DNA of 29,801 nucleotides, from IMG/VR virus record IMGVR_UViG_3300026519_000198, positions 1 to 29,801 of that record; one strand, given 5' to 3'. The notes under the pieces were generated by a model, which made no database searches, had not been told where the DNA came from, and worked only from the letters and a program-made list of their open reading frames with translations. The DNA is from a virus. Positions 11,107 through 29,685 of the stretch are shown here, piece after piece (the first letter of the stretch is position 1; the number at the start of each line of letters is the position of its first letter). Made by a program: the position numbers and the translations under genes.

Positions 11107-14100
11107 TTAAATTAAGCACTTACCACCAGCGCAAGCTACTTCTTCTTCTAGTTTGGTGTTATCTTCTGTTTCAACTAACTTAGTATAATCAACCTTTTTG
11201 AATGTTCTATTAAGGTCATACCACCGCTTCCAATTAAACACATCTTTCATACAATAAGTTAAGCGTTTATAGTCGCCATCCATATATTTATCTGCAAATT
11301 TGCGCGATCTATTATAAAATTCTTTACGGGCGGCGGCAGTTCTTAACCCCTCTGGAGTATCTAAGTTGATATCTTTATCGTTTGATGGATTATATTTGTT
11401 ATTTAGTAATACTATGCACGCAGTATACAGATGTCCACTAAATGCCTGTAGGGCCAATTCTATCAATCCAGAAGTCCAAAGAGCCGCTTCGCCATATTCC
11501 CTAACAATTTGCCTAGAAGTATATACCGTACAAAATGGAGCTTGTGGATAGTCTTTATCTCCACTAAAAGGTAATAAGCTAACACCCGTAAAATAATCTC
11601 GATTCTCATATATAAAATTAGCTACGTCATTCCATTCATCATCTTTAACAACTACAGTATTACTTACTGAATGTTGAAGGCCAGGATATACACATAATTC
11701 TTCATTTTTTCCCTGCATAACCCAATTTATTTGTGTACTCTTTACTATTTTTAGCATACGTATGGCATCTAACTGGTTTTTGGTTTTCGCGCCGTCGGGC
11801 ACTTCAATTGGGAAATATATTACGTCGTCTGTACCTGTATTTGAAGTTAATGACTTTTCACAGGCTTGTGGATTATACTTCTTGAAGTGTTTATATACTT
11901 CTTCTTCTGTGTTTGCTTGTACTGCTCTTAAGTATCGTGTTGCATGATGTGGATGTATACCACAAGCTAAAATACCGAGACTCAGACTTGCAGACCCCTC
12001 GGGCTTCGTAACCGTAGTTCTAGCCGCTACATTAATTCCAATCTTTTTGGCTATTTCCCTATTAGTCTCTTTAACTACTTCAGCGCCCTTATTTTGAACT
12101 TCTGGAGTTAGGGCTACCTCAAAGTTATCCATCATACCAGTCATGCTGACACCAATCAGGGCCTCACGCCTACAAATTTCTTCTGTAGTTTTTCCAACAT
12201 AATCAAATTTTGTAAAACCAGCCTGTAAAGTTCCCAAAATAGCTGCTGCTCTACATGCTTCAAAAAATTGCTTTTCTTTTTCTTCTTGTGTTCCTTTTAG
12301 TTTACTACAATTAATAGTAGACAAATTACAAAACTCCCACCCTGACTCAACACCATATTGCTTATTATCACCATCCATGAGAGGCTTGGCGGACTTTAAC
12401 CATTCGTCAAACTTCTTGGGGTTTTTGACGAGGTAAGGGAATAGTCCTACTTCTAAACAATTACCAGTACAAATACCGTTAGCAATTATGGAGTTGCGTT
12501 CTGGTTCATGTAGGCAATATACATCTTGATGACCCATATATTTTATCGAAACAATTGGAATGGCTTTAGTAATATTGTCAACATCATAAAAACTAAATAG
12601 TTCGTCTCCTACGGACAGCTCGCGAGTCTCGCGCACTCCAAATGTAGTTGGAAATCTATGATTGGCTGTGACTGTAATACATGATTTATCTTGCAGTAAT
12701 ATTTGATATACTGGAGCCAACTTTTGGGTGAGAGCAACTGGGCTAGCTTTAGATATCACAGGAACACTGTGTTGAAGCGATAGGTCTACTGTATTCCTAT
12801 TCAATAAGCGATGTGATAAGACGCTTACAGCATTACCATCTTCATAGAGTTCCTTGATCGCCTTATATCCATCTTTGGTCAGAATTTGTGTATCACCAAC
12901 AAAACACGGATTAAACATACACTCATAATTATCTACCCATACAAATCCAGGTTCACCAAACTCCCTAGTATTCTTAATGATGTCATCAAATTGTTCTTTT
13001 GTGGTACTATCTCGCAAGAGCATAACGCTATTATTAGCGCGCTGCCTTTGGGGATTTTCTACCCACCAATTTCCAGTTTTGCAAGATAGCATATCATCGT
13101 CATCTATGCTGAATAGTGAAATAAGGGCGGAGTTGTGTGAAACTGTTACTAAGTCACTACCCTTAGATTTTGTATTGTAACAATGTACCTGATCTATTTC
13201 GATATCATATGTTTCTTGTGCATCAATGTTTTCTGTATGTGTTATCTTTATGAACCTAGGCGAAACTACTACATTCCCAGTAACATCAGAACAATTCTGA
13301 ACGAACAAGTATCTATGTGGCTGTTCCTCAATTTGTTTGGTTTCGACCCAATCCATTAGTTTGGTTGTGTCGTCAAACACTAACCACCTATGTTCTGGCG
13401 TAGATATTTGATACCCTTCATCCGTATGAATTTTTATAAGTTCTCTTACCCCCGTACATTCTTGTCGTAATACTAAGTAGTTGTTACCATTATATTTAAT
13501 ATAATCCCCAGCCTTTATATCTTTAATAAACTTATACGTTCCATTAGACATTAATACTTCGCTATCACCTGGCTGACAACGACGTATCCCACCAGACAAT
13601 ACGGCATCTGATATATGACATATTATATCATGGCAATTTATGGGCTTTAGTTTATGCGTTCCTTTTTCTATAAGTGATTCTATTAATTCTTTTACTATAT
13701 TTAATGATCTACGCAACCCATCTGGCCCAGGAGCTTTGCCAGTCCCATCGCCAATGGGAGAGCCTTTGGGCCTAATTTGAGAATAGTCAAACTCAACTCT
13801 ATAACAAGCCCACTGTTCTAGCCAAGGGTCATCAGGATAGTTTTTGCAGGAAAAAAGTGTAGTCATTAGAACGCCCACACTATCGGCCCATCCTTCAATA
13901 CTGTCAGGAATAGTAAATGTTTTTACGGGCAAATTAAAGTATTCGTCCTTAGATTTTAGGGGCGGAAGTTTGTCTACGTGGTGTTTTTGGACTGAGAAGC
14001 CGCAACCGCAACCCGCTAACAGCAAGAATAAACACTCCTGGAAAAACCGTGGCCTATCAACGGGTGAACTTGAACAATTATAAATTCGGGCGTTTATCTT

Positions 14101-14340
14101 GAGGGCGTCTCTACCACCAAATTGTAAGGCGCGCTGAGAACCTAATACGCGCCTTTGTCTCATCATTTCATAGGCCCAGTTTATTTCTTCTTCTATGCCT
14201 TTATCTTTATAAAACTCTAACATCATATTTTTTACGCGGTTTACGGCCTCATTCCACGTTTCTCTGCGCTGTTTGTCTTGGAGCCACCGCGCATACTTAG
14301 ATGTAAAAATATAATCTTGAAGCGCTTTTACACTAGACAT
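11107..14340 (-). CDS. nrdJ: Class II (adenosylcobalamin-dependent) ribonucleoside-triphosphate reductase with two mini-inteins
   Basis: A 1077-codon gene whose product, after removal of two inteins (residues 255-403 and 479-627), should be about 779 residues, close to the 739 of the Lactobacillus leichmannii-type monomeric reductase. The extein shows the family signs: RIYNCSSSPVDRP with the first redox cysteine, the SGGIRR/SALISL join, DNYECMFNP/CLEVGLFPY, CNLSTINCSKL with the radical-site cysteine (likely), TVTKPEGSASLSLG plus GIHPHHATRYLRAV, and the C-terminal redox pair in EEEVACAGGKCLI. It reduces ribonucleotides to deoxyribonucleotides with coenzyme B12 and needs no oxygen or separate radical subunit. 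It follows a small gene that is preceded by a terminator and a structured RNA, so transcription into it may be regulated. It is followed closely by phoH. Confidence 0.92.
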   Translation of the reverse strand: MSSVKALQDYIFTSKYARWLQDKQRRETWNEAVNRVKNMMLEFYKDKGIEEEINWAYEMMRQRRVLGSQRALQFGGRDALKINARIYNCSSSPVDRPRFFQECLFLLLAGCGCGFSVQKHHVDKLPPLKSKDEYFNLPVKTFTIPDSIEGWADSVGVLMTTLFSCKNYPDDPWLEQWACYRVEFDYSQIRPKGSPIGDGTGKAPGPDGLRRSLNIVKELIESLIEKGTHKLKPINCHDIICHISDAVLSGGIRRCQPGDSEVLMSNGTYKFIKDIKAGDYIKYNGNNYLVLRQECTGVRELIKIHTDEGYQISTPEHRWLVFDDTTKLMDWVETKQIEEQPHRYLFVQNCSDVTGNVVVSPRFIKITHTENIDAQETYDIEIDQVHCYNTKSKGSDLVTVSHNSALISLFSIDDDDMLSCKTGNWWVENPQRQRANNSVMLLRDSTTKEQFDDIIKNTREFGEPGFVWVDNYECMFNPCFVGDTQILTKDGYKAIKELYEDGNAVSVLSHRLLNRNTVDLSLQHSVPVISKASPVALTQKLAPVYQILLQDKSCITVTANHRFPTTFGVRETRELSVGDELFSFYDVDNITKAIPIVSIKYMGHQDVYCLHEPERNSIIANGICTGNCLEVGLFPYLVKNPKKFDEWLKSAKPLMDGDNKQYGVESGWEFCNLSTINCSKLKGTQEEKEKQFFEACRAAAILGTLQAGFTKFDYVGKTTEEICRREALIGVSMTGMMDNFEVALTPEVQNKGAEVVKETNREIAKKIGINVAARTTVTKPEGSASLSLGILACGIHPHHATRYLRAVQANTEEEVYKHFKKYNPQACEKSLTSNTGTDDVIYFPIEVPDGAKTKNQLDAIRMLKIVKSTQINWVMQGKNEELCVYPGLQHSVSNTVVVKDDEWNDVANFIYENRDYFTGVSLLPFSGDKDYPQAPFCTVYTSRQIVREYGEAALWTSGLIELALQAFSGHLYTACIVLLNNKYNPSNDKDINLDTPEGLRTAAARKEFYNRSRKFADKYMDGDYKRLTYCMKDVFNWKRWYDLNRTFKKVDYTKLVETEDNTKLEEEVACAGGKCLI
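12460..12906 (-). other. Mini-intein 2 in the ribonucleotide reductase
   Basis: 149 in-frame codons between P478 and C628, splitting the conserved NPC motif of the reductase. Block A is CFVGDTQILTKDGYKAI, block B is CITVTANHRFPT, block F is QDVYCLHEPERNSIIANG, and the end is ICTGN followed by extein cysteine. The nucleophile, block B histidine and terminal asparagine are present, but the penultimate residue is glycine where histidine is usual. Inteins lacking that histidine are known and can splice, often more slowly. No endonuclease domain is present. The two inteins have little visible similarity beyond the blocks, so they were probably gained separately. Confidence 0.88.
13132..13578 (-). 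other. Mini-intein 1 in the ribonucleotide reductase
   Basis: 149 in-frame codons interrupting the extein between R254 and S404. Block A is CQPGDSEVLMSNG (first cysteine nucleophile), block B is QISTPEHRW (T and H), block F is TYDIEIDQVHCYNTK, and block G is LVTVSHN followed by extein serine. All residues for canonical protein splicing are present: Cys1, the block B histidine, and a His-Asn end before Ser+1. There is no room for a LAGLIDADG or HNH endonuclease domain between blocks B and F, so it is a minimal splicing domain. The insertion point interrupts the GGIRRSA segment conserved in the reductase family. Confidence 0.9.
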
Positions 14341-14529
14341 TTATTTTTTGTCTCCATTCTTATTTTTGTTGTGTCTTTTTGGTCTACCTTGATACCGATT
14401 CCAAAATTCGGCGAGTTTGGCTGCACTATCTGTTTTTATGGTGCGCCTAATATTTGTAGGTTTGCCATTCTTATCTTTAACTATCAAATTCAACTCAAAT
14501 GACTTACTTTCTGATGTATCACGAAACAT
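14341..14529 (-). CDS. Small basic unknown protein ahead of the reductase
   Basis: A 62-residue protein, not recognised. It begins MFRDTSESKSFELNLIVKD and ends in a lysine/arginine/asparagine-rich tail (YQGRPKRHNKNKNGDKK). The N-terminal part looks like two or three strands, followed by a helix around DSAAKLAEFWNRY and a basic tail, which would suit nucleic-acid binding. The frame is open further upstream, but the ATG at 14529 has a consensus AAGGAGG nine bases before it, while the longer reading would begin inside a terminator hairpin. It is therefore the first gene after that terminator, and its stop abuts the reductase start (TAAATG), so the two should be translated together. Confidence 0.72.
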   Translation of the reverse strand: MFRDTSESKSFELNLIVKDKNGKPTNIRRTIKTDSAAKLAEFWNRYQGRPKRHNKNKNGDKK

Positions 14530-14547: not shown

Positions 14548-14576
14548 AAAAAACCGCCGCACAGGAAGTACGGCGG
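14548..14576 (-). terminator. Rho-independent terminator upstream of the reductase operon
   Basis: On the minus strand a 6-bp perfect stem, CCGCCG / CGGCGG, encloses an 11-base loop and is followed directly by six T residues. It separates the dCMP deaminase and structured RNA from the 62-residue protein and the reductase, so it either ends a short transcript or acts as a controllable attenuator. I see no convincing antiterminator pairing partner upstream. Confidence 0.85.
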
Positions 14577-14587
14577 AGTAATTTTCT

Positions 14588-14767
14588 CAGCGACACTTTT
14601 TGACTAAGAATACTGAATGGGGAAATAAATTGTTCAACTTTACGATTTTACCTATCTCTGTTGCTTTACATTAATGTATTCAGTAAGCTCTTAGTCGATA
14701 GTAGGTTGGTATGTGTCGCTGTAACTCACATTGCCCCTAAAAGGACAAAAGTTCTTTATGACCAACC
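14588..14767 (-). ncRNA. Candidate structured RNA with two pseudoknots, between dCMP deaminase and reductase
   Basis: This 180-base gap has no gene but is full of long-range complementarity, read on the minus strand. Helix A: 14721-14713 (CAGCGACAC) pairs perfectly with 14596-14588 (9 bp). Helix B: 14696-14689 (GACTAAGA) pairs with 14609-14602, plus a G-U pair (9 bp). Helix C: 14685-14678 (TACTGAAT) pairs with 14618-14611 (8 bp) and stacks on B. Helix D: 14768-14761 (AGGTTGGT) pairs with 14710-14703 (8 bp), crossing helix A to make an H-type pseudoknot with a two-base connector. A possible second crossing helix joins 14701-14697 (CTATC) to 14656-14652 (GATAG). A hairpin TGTCC...GGGGCA lies at about 14747-14732. 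A Rho-independent terminator follows at 14576-14548. It could be a cis-acting riboswitch-like leader of the reductase operon or an independent RNA. Confidence 0.72.
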
Positions 14768-15253
14768 TTATTGCGATTTGTCTAATATTTTAAGTGCCTT
14801 TGTAAAAGATGTATTGTCCAACTTAATTTGTCTTATTTGAATATTACCATACTTTATTATACTGTTGTAAACATCCTTTTCGTGTTCTGAATATGCGTTT
14901 ATCATAGCGGCCTTGCCACTTAAAATAACTATTTCTGTTACTCTATTTTGGTATAAAGCCTTCAAACATTCCAAACATGGCATACCATTAACATAACATA
15001 CACAACCGCATATATCCTCTATGGAATTATATATTGCGTTTGCTTCCGCATGTATCATCCAAGGATATTTTTTAGGTCTAATGTTTGGTAATATATCATC
15101 AGGCATAAATCTAGGAAAAGAATTATACCCAGTTCCAATAATCCTTTTGTTTTTTACTAATACGCATCCATACTGACTCTGTGAGTCTTTTGATCTAGTG
15201 GCCGCCATTATGGCCATGCTCATAAAGTATTCGTCCCAGGATGGTGTGTTCAT
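14768..15253 (-). CDS. Deoxycytidylate (dCMP) deaminase
   Basis: A 161-residue zinc deaminase. It opens PSWDEYFMSMAIMAATRSKD, the usual start of dCMP deaminases, followed by YGCVLVKNKRIIGTGYNSFP. The catalytic zinc site is MIHAEANAI (H68, E70) and GMPCLECLKAL (C93, C96). It converts dCMP to dUMP, the substrate for ThyA, and complements the dUTPase also encoded here. The ATG at 15253 is only five bases after a -10 box, so the message may be leaderless (a weak AGGA lies just before the ATG). The stop codon abuts the structured RNA. Confidence 0.9.
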   Translation of the reverse strand: MNTPSWDEYFMSMAIMAATRSKDSQSQYGCVLVKNKRIIGTGYNSFPRFMPDDILPNIRPKKYPWMIHAEANAIYNSIEDICGCVCYVNGMPCLECLKALYQNRVTEIVILSGKAAMINAYSEHEKDVYNSIIKYGNIQIRQIKLDNTSFTKALKILDKSQ

Positions 15254-15258
15254 ATCCT

Positions 15259-15286
15259 ATTTTAGCGCCCAAATCCAGTTTGTCAA
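15259..15286 (-). promoter_or_regulatory. Sigma70-type promoter for the dCMP deaminase
   Basis: On the minus strand, a perfect -35 TTGACA (15286-15281) is followed after 16 bases by TAAAAT (15264-15259, five of six matches to the -10 consensus). The expected start point, six or seven bases on, falls on the deaminase ATG. It overlaps the final codons of the preceding hydrolase gene and marks the switch from the lysis/structural block to the nucleotide block. Confidence 0.8.
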
Positions 15287-18468: not shown

Positions 18469-18969
18469 TTAGTCATCCGTGTTGGAGCTAAGAATATTAA
18501 CATTTAGATTTTTCATTATTTGCTCCTTTACTTCTTGACTATTGAACGCTTTACCTATGGCAATTCTCCACCTATATGGCGTAAATATATCTAATGTTTC
18601 CACGCCATCGGTCTGATCTAGAATATCTTGTATTTCTTCTGTCATGCGGAAGTTTGAGTGCATAACCCAAAAGTTGAATACTTTGCTTGGGGTACTCCAT
18701 TCAGTTAGAGGTACTACACCTAGTGGTGTGGCCAAAAGTTTCATTGGTCTTTTGGGCATTTTATGGGGAATCGGAACCTTGCCTTCCATCATATCATAGT
18801 CTAACTCTTCCCAATCTTCTTCGGTAGCAGTTCCGTTTTCTAATTTCTCTATCTTTTTGAGGATTTCGTCACTCTCAAAAGTGCCAATAGCGCCTGGCCA
18901 CTCAATATCTTCTATATCTTCACCATATGGGTCTGCCCATTTTTCCCATATTATTTTTCGTTCTTTCAT
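18469..18969 (-). CDS. Unknown 166-residue protein downstream of ThyA
   Basis: Not assigned to a family. The N-terminal half is acidic (EKWADPYGEDIEDIEWPGAI and helix DEILKKIEKLENGTATEEDW). The C-terminal half, TPSKVFNFWVMHSNFRMTEE then LDQTDGVETLDIFTPYRWRI, looks like a compact alpha/beta domain of a kind that recurs in T4-type phages without known function. There is no membrane segment or obvious active site. Its ATG overlaps the ThyA stop (ATGA), which argues for coupled translation. It ends three bases before the SPFH gene. Confidence 0.7.
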   Translation of the reverse strand: MKERKIIWEKWADPYGEDIEDIEWPGAIGTFESDEILKKIEKLENGTATEEDWEELDYDMMEGKVPIPHKMPKRPMKLLATPLGVVPLTEWSTPSKVFNFWVMHSNFRMTEEIQDILDQTDGVETLDIFTPYRWRIAIGKAFNSQEVKEQIMKNLNVNILSSNTDD

Positions 18970-20405
18970 ACAACTACCTCCCCAAACTTAATCGCTGGAT
19001 GCGGATTATAATTTATTAGTTCTACATCCTCATGTGTCCAATTAAATATACTAAATTTGCCATTATATTTAATCCTTATACTAGGGAGGTTCCTTGGTTC
19101 CCTTGTAAGTTGCTCCTTAACCCCGTCTAATTGGTTTTCATATATATGACAGTCTACCAATACACCAGACAGATTTCCTGGCTCCAGATTGGCTTCTTTA
19201 GCCAAAAGGGTCAACAATAGAGCATATGACGCTATATTAAATGGTACACCAAGCATCAGATCACAACTCCTTTGTATCCAACACAAGTGTAATTTTCCGC
19301 CAATGACGGTAACATTCCACCCCCAATGACAAGGCGGTAACGCCATCATATGTAGGTCGTTTGGATTCCACGCAGAACATACCATACGCCTATCGTTAGG
19401 ATTGTTATGCAATGTGTCCACTATATTTTTTAGTTGGTCAGTTCCACTAGGAGGGAGAATAACATCACTATGTATCTGTACATCACGCTTCCATTCGCAT
19501 GTTGACTTATCATACATTTGACCTTTTACATGAAGGTGGTATCCACACCAATGGTTTACCTTACTTCTCCACCCCCTTATCTCTTGAATGTCTCTTAAGA
19601 AATTAGAAAATATAAGCCAGTCGTTAGACATATAAAATCCACGAGCACCATAATTTTTATAGCTCAAATTAGATGGATTATAGCACCTAGATAACAGTCC
19701 AAGCCAGTAATTATAAATACGTCTACGTTTTTTGGACGAAACACCATCATATTTTACGGTTGGACCCATGCAACCAACGCCATATTGACTTATATGATAT
19801 GGGTCTCTAACTTTACCAGAATTGACCGATGAAGCTCTACACCAATATTTATAAGTAGTTCTTAGAAACTGTATTTGTAATAGCTTCTTCTTTTTTCCTA
19901 TTATTATAAAATCGCCATACTTTTCATTATTATATATTTTACCATCTATTGATTCCTCAATTTTACAGTATGGTATATTTGGTTTAGGCGTTGGAACGTA
20001 ATTTCCACCAAAATTTCGCCACTCCCACCCGTAAATTGGACCCAAGTCCCTAGATGCTAACTGATAACGCTTTCTTTGGTCCCAACTGGCACCAGCAATA
20101 GAACCAGACACAGAACTAAATTCGTCCCAAATTCTACAGCCACGATCTTGATACCACTTTTTGTCGGTAATTCCTTTTATAAATCCCTCCAACTCAACCT
20201 TAATGGCGTGCCAAGCCATCTTTTTGGTGGTTAATAGCGGAAACCCATCTTCCATATTATGCGTGAAAAATACGTTTGGTAGTGCAAGCGTCTTCACTCC
20301 ACCATCAACTGGCTCAAATTTACCAGTATGAATATTTTTTCTAACTGGACACTTAACATGACCATTTTGTATTACGTTTTCTACAATATCTAAATACTGT
20401 TTCAT
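18966..20405 (-). CDS. thyA: Thymidylate synthase with a ~190-residue in-frame insertion
   Basis: A 479-residue ThyA; ordinary enzymes have about 260-290. The N-terminal part shows NMEDGFPLLTTKKM (about 50-63), RIWDEF and DLGPIYGWEWRNFGG (120-134). After the insertion the rest is intact: NPNDRRMVCSAWNPNDLHMM, ALPPCHWG with the catalytic cysteine (C359), QRSCDLMLGVPFNIASYALL with the dUMP-specific asparagine, DCHIYENQLDGVKEQLTREP and INYNPHPAIK. It methylates dUMP to dTMP with methylenetetrahydrofolate, downstream of the dCMP deaminase and dUTPase. The insertion sits between the 'GPIYG.EWR' and 'G.DQL' segments, a loop where length varies in the family, so activity could be preserved. A GGGAG ribosome site precedes the ATG at 20405. 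Confidence 0.9.
   Translation of the reverse strand: MKQYLDIVENVIQNGHVKCPVRKNIHTGKFEPVDGGVKTLALPNVFFTHNMEDGFPLLTTKKMAWHAIKVELEGFIKGITDKKWYQDRGCRIWDEFSSVSGSIAGASWDQRKRYQLASRDLGPIYGWEWRNFGGNYVPTPKPNIPYCKIEESIDGKIYNNEKYGDFIIIGKKKKLLQIQFLRTTYKYWCRASSVNSGKVRDPYHISQYGVGCMGPTVKYDGVSSKKRRRIYNYWLGLLSRCYNPSNLSYKNYGARGFYMSNDWLIFSNFLRDIQEIRGWRSKVNHWCGYHLHVKGQMYDKSTCEWKRDVQIHSDVILPPSGTDQLKNIVDTLHNNPNDRRMVCSAWNPNDLHMMALPPCHWGWNVTVIGGKLHLCWIQRSCDLMLGVPFNIASYALLLTLLAKEANLEPGNLSGVLVDCHIYENQLDGVKEQLTREPRNLPSIRIKYNGKFSIFNWTHEDVELINYNPHPAIKFGEVVV
19422..19985 (-). other. In-frame endonuclease-like insertion inside ThyA
   Basis: About 188 codons (roughly residues 141-328 of ThyA) with no counterpart in ordinary thymidylate synthases. 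The first part (YGDFIIIGKKKKLLQIQFLR, then HISQYGVGCMGPTVKY) and the second (RRIYNYWLGLLSRCYNPSNL, KNYGARGFYMSNDWLIFSNF, MYDKSTCEWK) follow the two-part pattern 'I.F..T.Y......G.V.DPY...GVG..G' and 'Y..W..ML.RCYNP....Y..YG.RG......W..F..F' that I associate with phage homing-endonuclease-like proteins. No intein blocks (no first Cys/Ser, no terminal Asn) and no stop codons are present. The boundaries are approximate. The endonuclease label is inferred from the pattern, not from identified catalytic residues. Confidence 0.6.
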
Positions 20406-29606: not shown

Positions 29607-29614
29607 CCTAAAAG

Positions 29615-29685
29615 CAGTGGGCCTAGGACTTGAACCTAAACCATATGATTCAAAGTCATATATGCTACCATTACACCAGCCCACT
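29615..29685 (-). tRNA. tRNA-Gln, anticodon UUG
   Basis: A 71-base cloverleaf on the minus strand. The acceptor stem AGTGGGC / GCCCACT is a perfect seven pairs, with discriminator G73. The anticodon arm TATGA / TCATA encloses the loop CTTTGAA, giving anticodon TTG (reads CAA, glutamine). The T arm has TTCAAGT as its loop with TTAGG / CCTAG. The D arm, GTGT / GCAT, carries the GG pair. No CCA is encoded. A phage carrying this tRNA would favour CAA codons, which are plausible in an AT-rich genome. Confidence 0.9.

Follow-up and report, generated by a model that had tools for sequence, protein, structure and literature searches.

A conserved pseudoknotted RNA ahead of phage ribonucleotide reductase genes and its probable role as a transcription-attenuating leader

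The window, by which we mean the whole stretch of DNA analyzed here, is an entire 29.8-kb IMG/VR record from an uncultured phage. Its gene set includes UvsX, DnaB helicase, primase, ligase, thymidylate synthase and dNMP kinase, and the DnaB protein shares less than 30% identity with the nearest isolated phages among the matches listed. On the minus strand, a C92-like amidase gene is followed by the genes for a dCMP deaminase, a 62-aa protein, a class II ribonucleotide reductase (RNR) with an intein, PhoH and an HNH endonuclease; a structured RNA lies between the deaminase and the 62-aa ORF that precedes the B12-dependent RNR (Table 1). An earlier reading of this DNA, made from the sequence only, had placed 180 bases without a gene between the deaminase stop and the reductase operon. 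Two small corrections apply: position 14768, where helix D of the RNA begins, is also the final base of the deaminase stop codon, and the 62-aa ORF is located between the terminator and the reductase.

The RNA folds as an H-type pseudoknot, formed by helices D and A, into which a hairpin (P2) and a long apical stem (P3) are set. The four helices picked out by the sequence-only reading (A, B, C and D) can be read directly from the minus strand, and D crosses A, the 5′ strand of A and the 3′ strand of D being joined by a 2-nt connector (14712-14711), as that reading had it. Helices B and C together make up the long apical stem, P3 (GACTAAGAG plus the stack above it; partner strand 14602-14618). 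A fifth, 5-bp complementarity (CTATC/GATAG) is present in the window, where alone it was read, and nothing supports its pairing. The terminator, which had been called a perfect Rho-independent one, is just that, and begins 12 nt past the pseudoknot. Folding of a 223-nt segment yields -63.1 kcal/mol, as compared to -44.4 ± 4.6 kcal/mol for shuffled sequences (z = -4.05; 0/200 as good). A pseudoknot of the D/A type (two 8-bp helices, 0-6 nt connector) arises in 7/400 dinucleotide shuffles; thus, the window pseudoknot taken alone is an event of about 2%, and it is the homologues that settle the question.

Table 1. Features of the RNA and its surroundings, listed in the direction of the minus strand
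Feature	Position	Strand	Remarks
Promoter-like TTGACA-16-TAAAAT, just 5′ of deaminase	15259..15286	-	nearest good match
dCMP deaminase, upstream neighbor of RNA	14768..15253	-	
Helix D, 5′ strand AGGTTGGT, 8 bp	14761..14768	-	read directly from strand
Joining segment CATAAAG	14754..14760	-	consensus AUAAAG, kept across homologues
P2 hairpin (14753-14742 with 14737-14731 and 14727-14723)	14723..14753	-	covariation, permutations
Helix A, 5′ strand CAGCGACAC, 9 bp	14713..14721	-	AGCGACAC core nearly invariant across family
Helix D, 3′ strand ACCAACCT	14703..14710	-	
Apical domain and stem P3 (earlier helices B and C)	14602..14696	-	sequence variable, stem in most homologues
Helix A, 3′ strand GTGTCGCTG	14588..14596	-	
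A-rich linker GAGAAAATTACT, pseudoknot to terminator	14577..14588	-	consensus nnnAAAAUYAC
Intrinsic terminator: 9-bp stem 14576-14554, then T6 (14553-14548)	14548..14576	-	
Small basic ORF, 62 aa, ATG at 14529, Shine-Dalgarno AGGAGG	14341..14529	-	no Pfam/PHROG match
Adenosylcobalamin-dependent RNR (RTPR-like, class II), intein-interrupted	11107..14340	-	PHROG, tblastn

Viral contigs, scanned with patterns and with RNR proteins, yielded a family of at least 21 distinct members (window included; 25 with near-copies), all of them in contigs of uncultured phages. The window RNR protein led to loci L002 and L003, in which deaminase, noncoding stretch, small ORF and RNR follow one another as in the window; the noncoding stretch in both contains AGCGACAC...GTGTCGCT plus a helix D of wholly different sequence. 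The consensus of the family, an RNA of about 180 nt, consists of D5′, AUAAAG, the P2 hairpin, AA, A5′ (AGCGACAC), 0-5 nt and D3′ in its first half, followed by the apical P3 domain (its stem is absent in L003), A3′ (GUGUCGCU), an A-rich linker of 11-13 nt and the terminator. Every true member lies immediately 5′ of RNR or, where a small ORF intervenes, immediately 5′ of that ORF; near-copy L033 ends short of the RNR, which is present in its contig (L118). The final pattern scan added 15 loci, of which 14 are true members and all 14 are upstream of RNR, and no true pattern match was found away from RNR genes. Six other matches (L016, L017, L022, L024, L034 and L198) do not have the fold and are due to chance; L034 is the single match in 257 Gb, or 85,000 bacterial and archaeal genomes. 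BLASTN of the window, L002, L003, L020, L199 and L209 stretches against named phages gave nothing or short chance matches, among them one in T4-like Klebsiella phages; a scan with the deaminase protein found no relatives, and an exact 17-base pattern found no match. The RNA is a minority trait: only four distinct nrdA upstream regions retrieved by protein alone carry it, and most related RNR loci retrieved in this way do not, so the RNA is not essential to RNR expression.

Do the helices covary? The sequence-only reading had named compensating base changes among homologues as the decisive test of its conserved pseudoknot, and these changes are found. In a register-aligned core, helix D has two-sided compensatory changes at 6/6 pairs examined and P2 likewise has two-sided changes (at its base, AAC/GUU, AGC/GCU, AGC/GUU and GAC/GUU); 99% of structure cells are paired vs 29-44% in slid controls, and no shuffle attains a covariation score as high as the observed one. 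The pair counts come from a 36-column core built by hand, as MAFFT did not bring helix D into register across members; this core favors pairing in helix D, and L028 was excluded from it because its joining segment is much longer. Because the hand alignment has this bias, the strands of D, P2 and P3 were also compared, own vs swapped, in regions located by conserved motifs that lie beyond the helices: for each helix, 0/20,000 permutations reach the observed score. Helix A hardly varies; a single compensatory change, C-G to U-A, is seen in L036 (found through its protein), and the near-invariance is overstated since part of the family was found with patterns that fix helix A. A conserved, structured, pseudoknotted RNA is thus strongly supported by the comparison of sequences.

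The fold matches no known model. An Rfam 15 covariance-model scan of the window found no match to the RNA at the gathering threshold and, at E≤10, only sub-threshold matches to unrelated small RNAs, none of them cobalamin, purine or nrdJ; the same scan of nine homologue loci at E≤1 returned nothing relevant, with no cobalamin and no nrdJ-motif match. This agrees with the earlier remark that no known riboswitch core is discernible. Several known RNAs nevertheless invite comparison. The 2′-deoxyguanosine riboswitch of Mesoplasma florum, a purine riboswitch variant, is linked to RNR genes and senses a deoxynucleoside; purine riboswitches are three-way junctions with kissing loops, whereas the present RNA is an H-type pseudoknot with no Rfam purine match. 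Small pseudoknot riboswitches of the preQ1 and SAM-II types also combine an H-type pseudoknot with A-rich strands in a leader, but share no sequence or model similarity with the present RNA, which has hairpins inserted in both loops. The nrdJ motif of Rfam, reported as a hit in Streptomyces (PMC8388888), is likewise a candidate structured cis-regulator tied to an (adenosylcobalamin-dependent) RNR gene; the present RNA differs from it in giving no nrdJ covariance match and in also preceding class I RNRs. The manA and wcaG motifs are structured RNAs from marine metagenomes and cyanophages (PMC2864571), but adjoin other genes (exopolysaccharide, photosynthesis and the like), and the present RNA does not match them. 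The riboswitch reviews searched, within a literature scope that takes in few subscription papers, do not mention RNR.

How does the RNA sit relative to the signals that start and stop transcription? In most members, a GGTGTATAAT-like (TATAAT-like) box ends a few bases 5′ of helix D, and transcription is expected to start at about the 5′ strand of D in most homologues, directly 3′ of this box. In the window, the promoter scan shows nothing promoter-like ahead of the RNA, in keeping with a cis element within an operon; the site just 5′ of the deaminase (Table 1) is a candidate promoter from which deaminase, RNA and RNR could be transcribed together. In six loci (L018, L020, L027, L036, L199 and L201), an ACTTTT sequence recurs at a variable distance 5′ of the GGTGTATAAT box with no standard -35 element; this arrangement may mark a phage-specific (middle-type) promoter.

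At the other end, the spacing between the pseudoknot and the terminator is 11-13 nt in 17/17 members with a separate U-tailed terminator. In L176, L196 and L202, helix A itself is directly followed by U6-7, with a further hairpin downstream in L196; L203 also belongs to this subtype. In L200, a hairpin is present without a proper U-tract. The distance from the end of helix A to the first ORF or start codon is 26-82 nt (nearly all members; 132 nt in L196) and is mostly taken up by the terminator, so that a promoter could not fit between the latter and the gene. The terminator ends within tens of bases of the start codon, and any transcript of RNR has to pass through it. In related nrdA loci without the RNA, a TATAAT-like promoter immediately precedes the gene; in phages with the RNA, it and its terminator therefore sit between promoter and gene. 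Together with the exclusive association with RNR, the lack of room for a promoter past the terminator supports the suggestion that a regulator is positioned in front of the reductase.

The reductases themselves belong to four families (NCBIfam, Pfam), two B12-dependent and two class I. RTPR-like class II enzymes are encoded in the window, L002 and L121 (the L002 and L121 matches fall below the NCBIfam cut-off, as expected for divergent phage enzymes), and dimeric NrdJ_Z class II enzymes in L018 and L200. Class Ia NrdA of the PRK09103 type follows the RNA in L020, along with its NrdB partner, and in L208; class I NrdA of the PRK07207 type follows it in L197, L201, L202 and L205. Since class I NrdA enzymes do not use B12, cobalamin is disfavored as the common signal, contrary to one of the two options raised in the sequence-only reading; a B12-linked signal would not fit the range of the family, and one linked to an RNR substrate or product would. 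The window RNR has a Pfam Intein_splicing match at residues 486-731, and the L028 enzyme (L028:8071-11601, 1177 aa) is probably also intein-bearing.

Taken together, these data make it probable that the RNA is a cis-acting leader of a new class, which attenuates transcription of the phage RNR operon in response to a signal. Several hallmarks of a riboswitch or transcription attenuator are present: a conserved structured leader upstream of functionally related genes, base-pair covariation (helix D and P2, with the permutations behind them) and an expression platform, the terminator. A mutually exclusive antiterminator pairing was not found: in no member does the 5′ arm of the terminator have a partner better than those in shuffles, and none is conserved, and the 3′ strand of helix A has no conserved competitor (77/300 shuffle totals are as good), in line with the earlier impression that there is no obvious antiterminator.

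With no alternative pairing above chance, how would the leader act? It would be transcribed first, ahead of RNR, and depending on whether the pseudoknot is folded, RNA polymerase would stop at the terminator or read into RNR. Action on a separate terminator would then have to proceed through geometry, with either the linker and the pseudoknot or, as in put RNA, the pseudoknot and the polymerase playing the part, or through the kinetics of pseudoknot folding. In the L176/L196/L202 type, folding of the pseudoknot could itself be the stop signal, helix A being followed by its U-tract; this form suggests that a folded pseudoknot means termination, and the simplest logic consistent with it would be an OFF switch. 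The A-rich strands AUAAAG, UAAAG and AAAAUYAC would surround the pseudoknot junction. The most likely signal would be nucleotide supply (a dNTP, ATP/dATP or a related compound), favored because the RNA tracks RNR function and not enzyme class or cofactor.

Could the RNA act on the polymerase directly? The HK022 put RNA acts on polymerase without proteins, and its anti-pausing at a nearby site is distance-dependent (PMC9378689). By this precedent, the nascent pseudoknot would bind host RNA polymerase and permit or time its passage through the terminator with no small ligand. The present RNA resembles put in being a phage leader near a promoter with terminators involved; its place in most homologues, where it would form the extreme 5′ end of the transcript, the strict distance to the terminator, matching the distance dependence of put, and the empty search for a base-paired antiterminator would all fit. 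Yet put is an RNA of about 70 nt with two stem-loops that bind the zinc-binding domain of RNA polymerase, an architecture not seen here, where the RNA is pseudoknotted and much larger; put elements serve early promoters and operons and act on many genes, while the present RNA precedes RNR only; and helix A running into a U-tract resembles a stop signal, not an antiterminator. We regard a put-like modifier as rather unlikely.

A self-contained small RNA gene (promoter, pseudoknot and terminator) that acts in trans and neighbors RNR by chance is a poor prospect. The TATAAT-like box directly 5′ of helix D in nearly all homologues and the terminator right after the RNA have the look of such a unit, and in this respect the notion of a free phage RNA, entertained in the sequence-only reading, retains some ground. 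However, it leaves the constant position directly before RNR unexplained, across four RNR families and with no true match elsewhere; the promoter scan shows no promoter-like site ahead of the window copy, and the terminator lies beside the ribosome-binding region of the next gene, so that RNR messages cross it anyway.

Small proteins of about 60-110 aa with a VRDxxGxPTG motif and a K/R-rich tail are encoded between the RNA and RNR in three of the RNR families (the window ORF, L002, L003, L028, L121, L128, L197, L200 and L202) and have no Pfam or PHROG match. Their basic tails, and their place right after the RNA in many members, might suggest a protein operator, with the operon autoregulated through binding of the pseudoknot by this protein, by RNR or by a further phage protein. 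We consider this very unlikely: the small ORF is missing at eight RNA-bearing loci (L018, L020, L027, L036, L176, L201, L205 and L208) and occurs without the RNA in L004, and a single operator could not easily serve RNR families as different as these four. A cobalamin riboswitch, which the adenosylcobalamin-dependent RNR of the window and the L002 relative would bring to mind, is scarcely credible given the Rfam scans and the NrdA/NrdB genes that follow the same RNA.

If the RNA is an attenuating leader, as we favor, a more specific version of this model can be put forward, tentatively: a riboswitch class confined to phages may sense the supply of deoxynucleotides or DNA precursors and shut off RNR, having been kept through exchanges between B12-dependent and class I enzymes, with one subtype in which the ligand-binding pseudoknot doubles as the terminator stem. 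RNR genes are among the commonest metabolic genes of phages, and RNR sets the DNA-precursor supply of an infection. An RNA that tracks RNR function over four families would be, as far as could be found, the first known case of phage RNR control by an RNA element, and the family offers a ready candidate sensor of a DNA building block. Its covariation is sufficient to define the structure, and with the family at hand one can go directly to transcription assays and ligand screens; the subtype with helix A followed by a U-tract would make switching unusually simple to test.

Some minor features deserve mention. The P3 domains of the window, L002, L121, L197 and others contain a recurring AAAGCAAC...GUUGAA element, and another group of members has GGUUGA...ACAACAAA, in the reverse order; these are possibly a conserved inner helix, P4. 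Elsewhere in the window, the 479-aa thymidylate synthase (18966-20405, minus strand) contains an internal HNH-endonuclease-like stretch at residues ~150-305, which may be an in-frame insertion or an intein, and the sole tRNA of the record is a tRNA-Gln (anticodon TTG; 29614-29685, minus strand).
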